DNA of 64,000 bases from Haemophilus parainfluenzae ATCC 33392 (GTDB lineage Bacteria; Pseudomonadota; Gammaproteobacteria; Enterobacterales; Pasteurellaceae), in contig NZ_CP133470.1 of assembly GCF_031191205.1 (NCBI RefSeq), positions 1,247,501 to 1,311,500 of the forward strand, read 5' to 3'. Of this stretch, positions 42,842 to 46,461 are shown piece by piece. The position numbers were made by a program, and so were the translations under genes. How positions within the stretch are numbered: position 1 is the first letter of the stretch; every line of letters starts with the position of its first letter. The notes beneath the pieces were generated by a model, which saw only the letters and a list, made by a program, of their open reading frames with translations, was not told the DNA's origin and ran no database searches.

Positions 42842-43933
42842 TTATTCTAACCCTTTCACATTGGGATTTTTAGTAATGAACATCGCATCGCCATAACTGA
42901 AAAAACGGTAGCGATTTTCGACCGCACTTTTATAGGCGTTCATGGTGTGGCTAAAGCCTGCGAAGGCAGACACCAACATAATCAATGTGCTTTCTGGTAA
43001 GTGGAAGTTGGTAATTAATGCATCCACCACACGGAATGATTTACCCGGGTAAATAAAAATAGACGTATCAGAAAAATAAGGTTCAATTAAATCTGGGTTG
43101 CCATTTTCTTCTGCGGATAGGGCAGCGGTTTCAACAGAACGTACTGATGTTGTGCCTACTGCAATGACACGTTTACCCGCTTTCTTCGTTTCAATAATGG
43201 CATTGCAGACTTCTTGAGAAAGCTCCACATATTCTGCATGCATAATGTGATCTTCAATATTTTCAACACGTACAGGTTGGAATGTACCCGCACCTACGTG
43301 CAAAGTTACAAATTCAAAATTGACACCTTTTTCGTGTAGCTTTTGTAAAAGCTCATCATCAAAATGCAAGCCAGCCGTTGGCGCTGCCACTGCACCAGGT
43401 ACTTTGTTATACACGGTTTGATAGCATTCTTGATCTGCCTCTTCATCAGGTCGATCAATATAAGGCGGCAAAGGCATATGACCGATTTCTTGCAACACAT
43501 CAAGCACATTGCGACTTTTATCTGCTAATTCCACTTCAAAAAGGGCATCTTGACGACCAACCATAATGGCTTTTACGCCATTATTTTCACCGAGTTTATC
43601 TTCGCCTAAAAATAATTCTGTACCTTCTTTCGGGGCTTTTGACGAACGAATATGTGCTAAGAAATGATGTTCACTTAAAACACGTTCCACCAACACTTCA
43701 ATTTTACCGCCGCTGGCTTTACGACCAAACATACGAGCAGGGATCACACGTGTATTGTTAAAAATCAACAAATCCCCTTCATCGATTAAATCCAATACAT
43801 CGGTAAAAGTGCGGTGAGAAATTTCACCGTTTTCGCCATTAAGTTGTAGCAAGCGGCAAGAAGAGCGATCTTCTTTAGGATAACGAGCAATCAGCTCATC
43901 AGGTAAGTTAAAATGAAAGTCAGAAACACGCAT
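42842..43933 (-). CDS. queA: S-adenosylmethionine:tRNA ribosyltransferase-isomerase QueA
   Basis: A 363-residue QueA (E. coli 356). It starts [16 protein letters not shown] and has [31 protein letters not shown] and [17 protein letters not shown]. It adds the epoxycyclopentanediol to preQ1-tRNA. The gene is first in the queA-tgt-HHE-tusA-like-yajC-secD-secF run. Two uptake signal cores lie within it. Confidence 0.96.
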
Positions 43934-44077
43934 AATTGTAAATCATGAAAGCTAAAAATGGGGCATAGTCTAGAGTGAATAAGGGGGAAATACAAGGGGG
44001 AATGTTGTTGGGCATGAATTGGCTTGAGAGATAGAGTAGGGCGGCAAATATTATACTATTTAAATTTATTAAGTTTT

Positions 44078-44109
44078 ATTGCAACGTAAAACCGCCTAGA
44101 GGCGCAGCC
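44078..44109 (-). repeat. heavily degenerate CRISPR repeat relic
   Basis: By eye about 19 of 32 positions match the array consensus, including CAAC at the 5' part and CCGCC...AGGCG at the stem. It ends 32 bases before the next repeat relic, about one spacer length. It could be chance; the spacing is the main support. Confidence 0.4.
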
Positions 44110-44141
44110 TATTTAGATGTGAAAAATTTTCCTTTCTCCAT

Positions 44142-44173
44142 GTTTCAACACACAGCCGCGCGGAGGCGGCTAG
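44142..44173 (-). repeat. isolated CRISPR repeat (relic of the array's old end)
   Basis: The 32 bases match the repeat at 44664-44695 over 30 bases from GTTTCAACACAC to GGCGGCT, differing only at the last bases. It lies on the far side of the VOC gene from the main array. Confidence 0.85.
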
Positions 44174-44204
44174 GGTGTATGGCGTAGCCACGCATTAAGT
44201 TAAC

Positions 44205-44555
44205 TTATTCATGCTGCAAAATATTCACTAGCCGCCCAAACGGATCACGCACAAAAAAACGGCGCACGCCCCAGGGCTCAGTGACTGGTCCGTATTCAGG
44301 TGTGAAACCAGCATGCTGCATCCGTTCCAATAATTCGCCCAGATTGTCCACTTCAATAGACAAATCAGGCACAGGCATGCCAGAACCGCCTTCACTGGCA
44401 AAACTAACCTGCACAGACATGGTTGTATCCTGCCCGTAGGTCTGTATCCAACCATGATCCATTAGCAATTCCAGTCCAAGCAAGTCATGGTAGAAAGCCT
44501 TTGCTGCGACGGGTTGGGTTACGTTGATATTGGCCACAATGCGTTTAACGCCCAT
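44205..44555 (-). CDS. VOC-superfamily (glyoxalase / bleomycin resistance-like) protein inside a CRISPR array
   Basis: A 116-residue protein with the VOC fold. It opens GVKRIVANINVTQPVAAKAFYHDLLGLEL, has the middle LSIEVDNLGELLERMQHAG, and ends GVRRFFVRDPFGRLVNILQHE (all cited by region). The usual metal ligands are weak: the first strand has no His, and the final strand reads VNILQ rather than the usual E-containing form, so it may be of the ligand-binding or antibiotic-binding type without a metal. The gene is richer in GC than its neighbours, a sign of transfer. AAGGAAAG precedes the ATG. Repeat relics stand on both sides. Function unknown; a drug- or metabolite-binding role is a guess. 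Confidence 0.88.
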   Translation of the reverse strand: MGVKRIVANINVTQPVAAKAFYHDLLGLELLMDHGWIQTYGQDTTMSVQVSFASEGGSGMPVPDLSIEVDNLGELLERMQHAGFTPEYGPVTEPWGVRRFFVRDPFGRLVNILQHE

Positions 44556-44597
44556 GTTCTTTCCTTATTAACTAACGTTGTTCCCTTCGGTGCTTGT

Positions 44598-44829
44598 TTT
44601 TCAACATGCAGCCGCGCGAAGGCGGCTGCTGGTTAAATCTTGATTTAAAAACAAGAAAAAGTAGTTTCAACACACAGCCGCGCGGAGGCGGCTGCATATA
44701 AAACATGGGATTTTGTGAGTTATTGCCCTGTTTCAACACACAGCCGCCCGAAGGCGGCTGCTTAGCTTGATTGTGCGTGTCATTGTTTCATTTTGCGGTT
44801 TCAACACACAGCCGCCCGAAGGCGGCTGC
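44598..44829 (-). CRISPR. small CRISPR array, 4 repeats and 3 spacers, type I-C-like, no cas genes in window
   Basis: Repeats of 32 bases lie at 44598-44629, 44664-44695, 44730-44761 and 44798-44829; spacers are 34, 34 and 36 bases. The two right-hand repeats are identical; the others carry point changes, the leftmost most. The repeat has a GCCGCC / GGCGGC stem, and in transcription orientation (minus strand) ends TTGAAAC, like type I-C repeats. The conserved end and AT-rich leader on the right indicate transcription from right to left. No cas gene is seen in this 64-kb window, so any matching Cas proteins would be elsewhere or absent. Confidence 0.92.
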
Positions 44830-44950
44830 CTATTATCCCATTGTTAAATATAAAATTATGAGATAGTGTACGCCTTTTTATTATGGCTTCAATATGATAA
44901 TGAAATATATATTAAATTTGTGATCTATATCTCAAAATTTATTTTGGGCA
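44830..44950 (-). promoter_or_regulatory. AT-rich CRISPR leader
   Basis: About 120 bases right of the first intact repeat are strongly AT-rich with several TATA-like stretches and no gene. This is where a leader with promoter and integration sites would be. The exact promoter was not determined. Confidence 0.55.
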
Positions 44951-44984
44951 TAAAAAAAGCCCTTTCAAAAAGGTGAAAGGGCAA
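44950..44984 (-). terminator. terminator downstream of trhP
   Basis: Stem GCCCTTTC / GAAAGGGC with an 8-base loop; the minus strand continues with seven T. It separates trhP from the CRISPR leader. Confidence 0.8.
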
Positions 44985-45081
44985 AATATTTGGAGTCATA
45001 CTATGAGTTGTTGAATTAACAAATCAGGTATGGGACGTATTATAGTTTATTTATTAACAAATGCAACATTTTTTTAACAAA

Positions 45082-46461
45082 TTAATTATGTGGATTGCGC
45101 GTGTTGGTGTTGACTAGGTTACGCATCAACAAGGCATAATCAAGCTGGATGTCTTGTGGCACATCTAAAAAGACAAAATGGCCATCGCCGAGTGCGGCTT
45201 CCACATTTTCGTTTTTGCGATTGAGCATTTTTTCAATCTTAAAGACGATATTGCCTTGTGGAGTCATCATTTCTACTTCATCACCAAGCAAGAATTTGTT
45301 TTTCACTGCCACTTCAGCCATGCCTTGTTCATTACGTTTACCGGTAAATTCACCAACAAATTGTTGGCGTTCAGAGATAGAGTAGCCGTATTCATAATTT
45401 TGGTATTCATCGTGCGTATGACGACGTAAGAAACCTTCGGTATAACCACGGTGTGCAAGGGATTCCAAAGTATCCATTAAGCTTTCATCAAATGGTTTGC
45501 CCGCTGCCGCATCATCAATGGCTTTGCGATAAACTTGAGCGGTTCTTGCACAGTAATAGAAGGATTTAGTACGGCCTTCGATTTTTAAAGAATGCACACC
45601 AAGTGCGGTCAATTTTTCCACGTGTTGTACGGCACGTAGATCTTTCGAGTTCATAAAGTAGGTGCCGTGCTCATCTTCAAACGCTGTCATTTGTTCATCG
45701 GGTTTTTGTGATTCGGTATAAAGGAAGACTTTATCCGTTACCGCACCTTCGCCTAAAGTTGGCGCGACATTTTTCACTTCGATTTGTTGAGCGGGATCGA
45801 TTTTCGGCACGATGTTGCCTACTTCATCTGTGGTGCCTTCTTCCATTTTGTATTCCCAACGGCAAGCATTGGTGCAAGTGCCTTGGTTTGGGTCGCGTTT
45901 GTTGATATAGCCAGAAAGTAAGCAGCGGCCAGAATACGCCATACATAACGCACCGTGTACGAAAATTTCGAGTTCGATATCAGGCACGTGTTGGCGAATT
46001 TCAGCGATCTCTTCAATGGATAATTCGCGCGATAAAATCACACGGGTTAATCCCATTTGTTTCCAGAATTTGACGGTCGCCCAGTTTACCGCATTCGCTT
46101 GTACAGAAAGGTGAATATCAATATCAGGGAAGTTTTCACGCACCAACATGATTAAGCCTGGGTCAGACATAATTAAGGCATCAGGGCCCATGTCGATCAC
46201 AGGTTGTAAATCTTTGATAAAGGTTTTGAGTTTGGAGTTATGCGGTGCAATGTTTACGACCACATAGAATTTTTTGCCAAGTGCATGGGCTTCATCGATC
46301 CCGATTTTTAAATTGGCATGATTAAATTCATTGTTGCGTACACGTAAGCTGTAACGTGGTTGGCCTGCATAAACGGCATCTGCACCATACGCAAAGGCAT
46401 AGCGCATATTTTTTAGGGAGCCAGCAGGGGAGAGTAATTCAGGTTTAAATGGGGTTGTCAT
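45082..46461 (-). CDS. trhP: tRNA 5-hydroxyuridine synthesis protein TrhP (YegQ, U32 family)
   Basis: A 459-residue U32-family protein. It starts MTTPFKPELLSPAGSLKNMRYAFAYGADAVYAG and carries the family cysteines in HGALCMAYSGRCLLSGY and GTCTNACRWEY, which hold an iron-sulfur cluster in relatives, plus LKIEGRTKSFYY. TrhP and prephenate supply hydroxylation of U34 in tRNAs with 5-oxyacetyl or methoxy uridine. The family name 'peptidase U32' is historical. One uptake signal core lies in the gene. Confidence 0.9.
   Translation of the reverse strand: MTTPFKPELLSPAGSLKNMRYAFAYGADAVYAGQPRYSLRVRNNEFNHANLKIGIDEAHALGKKFYVVVNIAPHNSKLKTFIKDLQPVIDMGPDALIMSDPGLIMLVRENFPDIDIHLSVQANAVNWATVKFWKQMGLTRVILSRELSIEEIAEIRQHVPDIELEIFVHGALCMAYSGRCLLSGYINKRDPNQGTCTNACRWEYKMEEGTTDEVGNIVPKIDPAQQIEVKNVAPTLGEGAVTDKVFLYTESQKPDEQMTAFEDEHGTYFMNSKDLRAVQHVEKLTALGVHSLKIEGRTKSFYYCARTAQVYRKAIDDAAAGKPFDESLMDTLESLAHRGYTEGFLRRHTHDEYQNYEYGYSISERQQFVGEFTGKRNEQGMAEVAVKNKFLLGDEVEMMTPQGNIVFKIEKMLNRKNENVEAALGDGHFVFLDVPQDIQLDYALLMRNLVNTNTRNPHN

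Follow-up and report, generated by a model that had tools for sequence, protein, structure and literature searches.

How does an intact gene for a VOC-fold protein come to lie among CRISPR repeats in Haemophilus parainfluenzae ATCC 33392? The gene is found between trhP and queA in a window of 64,000 nt, which is the whole stretch of DNA that was analysed (NZ_CP133470.1:1,247,501-1,311,500; all coordinates are positions in this window), and is flanked there by five type I-C repeats and an eroded terminal repeat (Table 1). The explanation that we favour, and to which we give a probability of about 0.7, is that this is a fossil type I-C locus from which the cas operon and the leader have been deleted, and in which a foreign VOC gene has lodged, with the former cas promoter probably driving its transcription. 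At the trhP-queA site there would once have been a type I-C CRISPR-Cas locus, and a deletion that removed the cas operon and the leader would have joined the upstream (promoter) region of cas3 to a repeat. A short piece of foreign DNA, with VOC as its single gene, would have ended up after the fourth repeat, with the last of the well-kept repeats on its other side; most likely its source was another bacterium, presumably an oral one, and its route natural uptake followed by recombination. Transcription would probably start at the former cas promoter and reach the gene after passing four repeats and three spacers; the four repeats would form a hairpin-rich 5' leader of the transcript, with no crRNA processing, and the protein would be translated from a ribosome-binding-like site of its own. 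We regard the locus as a fossil curiosity that carries a passenger gene, not as a new system. Its significance is to show that an intact foreign gene can be housed in a dead array, downstream of a former cas promoter.

Table 1. Features of the relict array and its surroundings, in window coordinates.
Feature	Position	Strand	Remarks
Degenerate terminal repeat, trailer end, adjoins queA	44078..44109	-	13 mismatches to consensus; position and sequence common to G006 and G005
Oldest spacer	44110..44141	-	Common to G006 (L130); with the terminal repeat 63/64 bases match
I-C repeat	44142..44173	-	4 mismatches; the two VOC-side bases 44172-44173 differ
30-base flank, clipped spacer or imported flank	44174..44203		Outside the C. 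hominis homology block
VOC-fold gene, 116 aa, intact, foreign	44205..44555	-	ORF, Pfam and homology comparisons
Ribosome-binding-like AAGGAA	44561..44566	-	5 bases before the VOC ATG; the C. hominis gene has the same upstream
28-base flank	44570..44597		Outside the C. hominis homology block
I-C repeat	44598..44629	-	4 mismatches, three in the VOC-proximal half
Spacer, 34 bases	44630..44663	-	Read between repeats
I-C repeat	44664..44695	-	2 mismatches
Spacer, 34 bases	44696..44729	-	Read between repeats
I-C repeat, canonical	44730..44761	-	0 mismatches
Spacer, 36 bases	44762..44797	-	Read between repeats
I-C repeat, canonical, now first, without leader	44798..44829	-	0 mismatches
Former cas3 upstream region, fused to first repeat	44830..44946	-	88% identity to G002, up to 2 bases short of the cas3 TTG
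Promoter-like TTGAAG-N16-TACACT	44865..44892	-	Hexamers identical in G002
Terminator-like hairpin between trhP and array, putative role	44959..44982	-	Hairpin scan: 2 sites in 43940-45081, 1.4 expected

The repeats are real. The 32-base repeat is identical to that of another genome of the genus, G006, where it adjoins Cas5c, Cas8c/Csd1, Cas7/Csd2 and Cas1c. An exhaustive, ungapped scan of both strands of the whole window with the I-C repeat gave copies at 44798, 44730, 44664, 44598 and 44142 with 0, 0, 2, 4 and 4 mismatches, and, at up to 10 mismatches, one extra match on the other strand at 44608 (10 mismatches) that lies across the 44598 copy, which is palindromic. Across 40 simulated sequences of 64 kb each (order-2 Markov), the best match to arise by chance had 11-14 mismatches, and the copy at 44142 is therefore real. 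The copy at 44078-44109, with 13 mismatches, is at chance level when taken alone, but it is real by homology, since 63 of the 64 bases in 44078-44141 are identical to the last spacer and terminal degenerate repeat of G006, and since G005 has a less eroded terminal repeat at the corresponding place (L129:7041, 8 mismatches). Chance matches as an explanation of the left repeats are thus ruled out by simulation for one and by homology for the other, and a gene-sized gap between repeats need not mean that the repeats are accidental. Two canonical and three near copies, with three main spacers of 34-36 bases, make this a type I-C array, and all of its complete intervals other than the one with the VOC gene measure 32-36 bases. 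An earlier note on this DNA had reported repeats at 44598-44829, 44142-44173 and 44078-44109, and all of them are borne out. So is its observation that repeat quality falls from right to left, in the order of mismatches just given and ending with the 13 of the terminal copy, as in a decaying array, and its view of the left repeats as the old (trailer) end, which the oldest spacer and terminal repeat of G006 match. For the oldest spacer and the three full ones, one 22-base piece each was compared with the viral contigs, and none had an exact match there, inexact targets being possible; one of the full spacers (44762-44797) had no match in phage records.

Among related genomes, G006 has an array without the VOC gene at the matching site. 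The comparison covered ten other genomes of the genus, with one genome per species searchable. Between trhP and queA, G006 carries cas3 (two ORFs, the second recognised solely through its similarity to cas3 of G002), then three more genes, then cas5c, cas8c, cas7 and cas4 (the last as two ORFs), and after another two ORFs cas1 and cas2; the leader and an array of 11 perfect repeats, with spacers of 33-36 bases, come next, followed by queA. G002 has cas3 and cas5c adjoining trhP and, near queA, at least part of cas7, then cas4, cas1, cas2, a leader and two repeats with 4 mismatches each; some 38.5 kb separate the two parts examined, and cas8c was located in neither. Less is left in G005 (cas pieces, one near repeat and the eroded terminal repeat), in G008 (a 40-residue piece of cas3, an OLD-like gene and two repeats), in G010 (pieces of cas1, cas4 and cas3, with no repeat even when 9 mismatches are allowed) and in G003 (a cas3-like piece of 52 residues and other DNA, without a repeat). 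The site is nearly empty in G001, G004 and G009, with about 20 bases between the homologous sides and no repeat (G001 being the one read directly), and G007 is not collinear there. By these comparisons the window is one state within a decay series of an I-C locus, and a single chromosomal site in one genus presents the states from a near-complete locus to a nearly clean loss.

Several other genes are lodged at this site. The OLD-like gene of G008 occupies the trhP-queA site at L132:1270-3099 and ends 12 bases before a repeat; an OLD-like gene beside leftover repeats suggests that the site may be a hot spot for defence genes. In G006 three genes, the first of them NA37-like, lie between cas3 and cas5c (L130:3348-6586), and a solitary repeat-like copy with 5 mismatches stands immediately before cas5c, where it could be an insert boundary or a repeat mimic able to bind Cas5c. 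The gap between cas4 and cas1 in the same genome (L130:10689-12248) holds an ORF with a SLATT_5 domain and a second ORF without a Pfam match, so that more genes are lodged inside the I-C operon itself.

The right side of the array was taken for the leader end in the earlier note, and this has to be revised. The leader common to G002, G005 and G006 is absent beside the first repeat here, and homology to the region before cas3 of G002, 88% identical, begins exactly at 44830, so that cas3-upstream DNA occupies the place of the leader and a leader on this side is ruled out. A missing leader and a cas3 upstream region flush with a repeat mean that a deletion took the cas operon together with the leader, and it is by this loss that the cas promoter region was joined to the repeat. 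The flank of a relict array may accordingly be a cas promoter rather than a leader. A similar junction is seen in G053, which belongs to another genus, where a stretch of cas3 (L137:8094-8231, residues 22-56) comes within 1 base of a canonical repeat that has no leader, in parallel with the junction at 44829/44830 in the window.

The searches for I-C cas genes, in cis and in trans, were negative. The Cas5 family has no match in the strain's own genome, and the single Cas1 match there is of type II and stands beside Cas9 (this genome-wide search covered Cas5 and Cas1); neither the cas proteins of G006 nor cas3 and cas5 of G002 have a match in the window (tblastn, 1e-4). Processing of I-C repeats requires Cas5c. 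With no Cas5 match and only a type II Cas1, an I-C crRNA function is not to be expected. One point against the favoured explanation concerns the ancestor of the locus. Local homology to G006 extends over queA and on through the terminal repeat and the oldest spacer into the 44142 repeat, where it stops at 44171; the fused flank fits only G002 well and the trailer fits G006, so that the ancestor is a composite, and no compared genome shows it whole. The type II locus of the own genome (L170, G000:C1:1607000-1623000) encodes a Cas9 of 1054 aa, Cas1 and Cas2, has 31 repeats of another sequence at a spacing of about 66 bases, and would by its gene content be II-C. Since it is present, it is only the I-C locus that this genome has lost.

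The gene itself is foreign. Its product scores 43.5 bits against PF00903 (Pfam Glyoxalase, cut-off 20.6), which places it in the VOC superfamily, and has no match in NCBIfam. GC is 49.6% against 40.0% for the window, and GC3 is 49.6% (queA 32.7%, trhP 41.7%). None of the ten other genomes of the genus has a match, in the family the gene is found in one genome of 140, namely its own, and among the genomes of 100 relatives (own included) there is one other match, at 61%. Relatives are encoded in 264 genome-contig stretches, and among the best 80 of these, which were kept, the best named one is from Cardiobacterium hominis (86% aa) and the next is at 73%; in the family of C. hominis the gene occurs in 1 of 12 genomes, that of C. 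hominis itself. ENA-sourced proteins are up to 91-96% identical, plasmid relatives reach at most 70% aa, and the viral contigs and phage records searched contain no relative, although the searches of genome contigs and viral contigs may omit records of the own or a very near genome. The earlier note had described a foreign, GC-richer gene of the VOC fold that lies between the repeats and points along array transcription (minus strand), and the Pfam match, GC, GC3, homology and sporadic distribution all agree with that description.

The closest solved relative, Atu1953 (PDB 2pjs), aligns over residues 1-115 (E = 9.4e-42), but 2pjs is listed as uncharacterized and no function is therefore transferred. 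Between the VOC gene and its C. hominis relative dN is 0.066 and dS 0.98, and the resulting dN/dS of 0.068 indicates purifying selection, but the low ratio spans the time before the insertion as well and is for this reason not proof that the present copy is in use. The protein falls in a conserved VOC group in an alignment of 34 rows, in which N9 is nearly invariant and N111 invariant; both stand at what we take to be metal-ligand positions, and from these conserved asparagines one might guess that the protein is a non-metal binder. A structure model had a mean pLDDT of 68, a confidence too low for use. Its most likely role is that of a small VOC protein in ligand binding or detoxification.

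The geometry of the insert bears on how it came here. The interval between the repeats (44174-44597) is 424 bases long, that is 30 + 366 + 28, where the 366 bases at 44204-44569 are the limits of the DNA homology to C. hominis (82.5% nt). The flanks of 30 and 28 bases have no known homology and together make 58 bases, more than the 32-36 of one spacer, and the proposal of one spacer plus about 390 foreign bases is not supported. A single gene does stand between repeats, near the old end; the insert may lie flush with the repeats with imported flanks, in one spacer with extra bases, or in place of a repeat between two clipped spacers. In both flanking repeats the side that faces the VOC gene is altered (44172-44173 in one, 44598 and 44607-44608 in the other), changes that resemble junction scars and could be ordinary decay. 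With up to 3 mismatches allowed, the stretch 44172-44195 has a single occurrence in the strain's genome. A 20-base part of the 44174-44203 flank and a 22-base part of the 44570-44597 flank had no exact match in the viral contigs, no donor of the flanks was found in viral contigs, plasmids, phages or the C. hominis family (12 genomes), and no uptake sequence is present in the insert.

Against simple uptake and recombination stand three other routes of entry. The VOC gene could have arrived within a piece of another bacterium's I-C array, by recombination between repeats. The 44598 repeat, which has a sequence of its own here, and the alteration of both adjacent repeats towards the gene would suit this, and 10 of the 100 relatives' genomes, own included, have repeats of this family when up to 3 mismatches are allowed. 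However, the other 9 array-bearing genomes have no VOC match, C. hominis has no I-C repeat at up to 3 mismatches, and no such repeat accompanies the gene at 81 loci of VOC relatives (the best 80 of the 264 contig stretches and one from the 100-genome search), where the best match, at 11 mismatches, is at chance level; we regard the route as possible but unlikely. Still less can be said for the idea that Cas1-Cas2 integrated a stretch of DNA as long as a gene in the manner of an oversized spacer, which we find hardly credible. It would explain an interval that has a repeat at either end and no further array sequence recognised inside, but the other complete intervals are 32-36 bases here and 33-36 in G006, the gene is near the old end and not at the leader end, and both flanking repeats are altered.

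The earlier note had also thought of an integron-like or other cassette, and a single-gene unit with short flanks and a sporadic distribution is indeed what a self-inserting mobile gene cassette, whether integron-like or a small transposable unit, would look like. A simple pattern scan for attC-like core pairs (GTTRRRY/RYYYAAC) gave none in the VOC flanks, however, with matches only inside the gene and at 44632. There are no inverted repeats of at least 20 bases in 43500-45800, and the insert's ORFs of at least 70 aa are the VOC gene and one overlapping frame only, with no integrase or transposase among them. The lack of a relative in the viral contigs and phage records and the distance to the plasmid ones point the same way, so that the insert has the marks neither of an integron gene cassette nor of an IS or transposon insertion, and a mobile cassette is very improbable.

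If the locus is, as we favour, a fossil with a passenger gene, the gene might still be expressed. TTGAAG-N16-TACACT (44892-44865) faces the repeats and the VOC gene and is kept identically before cas3 of G002, and on these grounds the former cas promoter probably drives the gene. By hand count the hexamers agree with the consensus at 8 of 12 positions; an automatic promoter scan, whose threshold was stricter, left the site out and found hardly more promoter-like sites than expected (3 against 2.4). Expression together with the crRNA precursor, as had been suggested, does not fit a locus with no leader and no Cas5 match in its genome, and could at best be read-through from the former cas promoter. 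The 5' stretch has a strong RNA fold (z -5.35), for which the hairpin-forming repeats alone can be an explanation, and Rfam gives one match near the array, below the gathering score of its family. If the stretch is transcribed, parts of a CRISPR locus have been re-used as the control region of a gene. It could be speculated that collapse at the leader-side edge of a repeat recurrently turns dead arrays into landing sites for genes, and that the cas promoter and the repeat hairpins then regulate the captured gene. The hints are three leaderless loci examined post hoc, namely the cas3 upstream region flush with a repeat here, the G053 cas3 1 base and the OLD-like gene of G008 12 bases before one, and we consider so general a rule doubtful.

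Type I-C is the most prevalent subtype in Haemophilus, with the order cas3-cas5-cas8c-cas7-cas4-cas1-cas2 followed by the array, according to PMC13016550. The present locus is like it in the 32-base repeat as in G006, in spacer lengths, adjacency to queA and a degenerate terminal repeat, and unlike it in that no I-C cas genes were found, that the leader is gone and that one interval of 424 bases bears a gene. For Escherichia, Salmonella and Shigella, PMC2886076 describes degraded loci with cas deletions, IS elements in cas genes and irregular array spacing caused by transposases, as well as degenerate terminal repeats, and reports that leaders remain in genomes with degraded systems. Loss of cas genes, few remaining repeats and an insertion in the locus are shared with these; the differences are that the insert here is a single non-transposase gene and that the leader has been lost. 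Inactivation of cas genes by IS transposition, as reported in PMC10359306, is likewise a case of foreign DNA within a CRISPR-Cas locus, but here there are no IS hallmarks and it is the array that was hit, not a cas gene. Array decay and insertions are by these precedents known in kind. None of the titles and opening lines of abstracts in the open-access literature searched describes a VOC gene inside an array, which does not prove that there is none, and within those same records there is no counterpart to the variant met here, in which a single gene that is not mobile would make use of a former cas promoter.

Two minor observations concern the relatives. In C. hominis the VOC relative is immediately preceded by short tandem repeats (L034:4669-4916) whose motif is GCCAAGCGG, and transposase-like ORFs, judged by eye, are found nearby. 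The I-C loci L126, L130, L135, L136, L138 and L164 fall into two effector modules, one of the G006/G016 type and one of the G002/G029/G041 type, with a similar adaptation module; across the two, cas1 is 86-98% identical and the identity of cas5 and cas7 goes down to 29-35%, a pattern that suggests module exchange at one locus.
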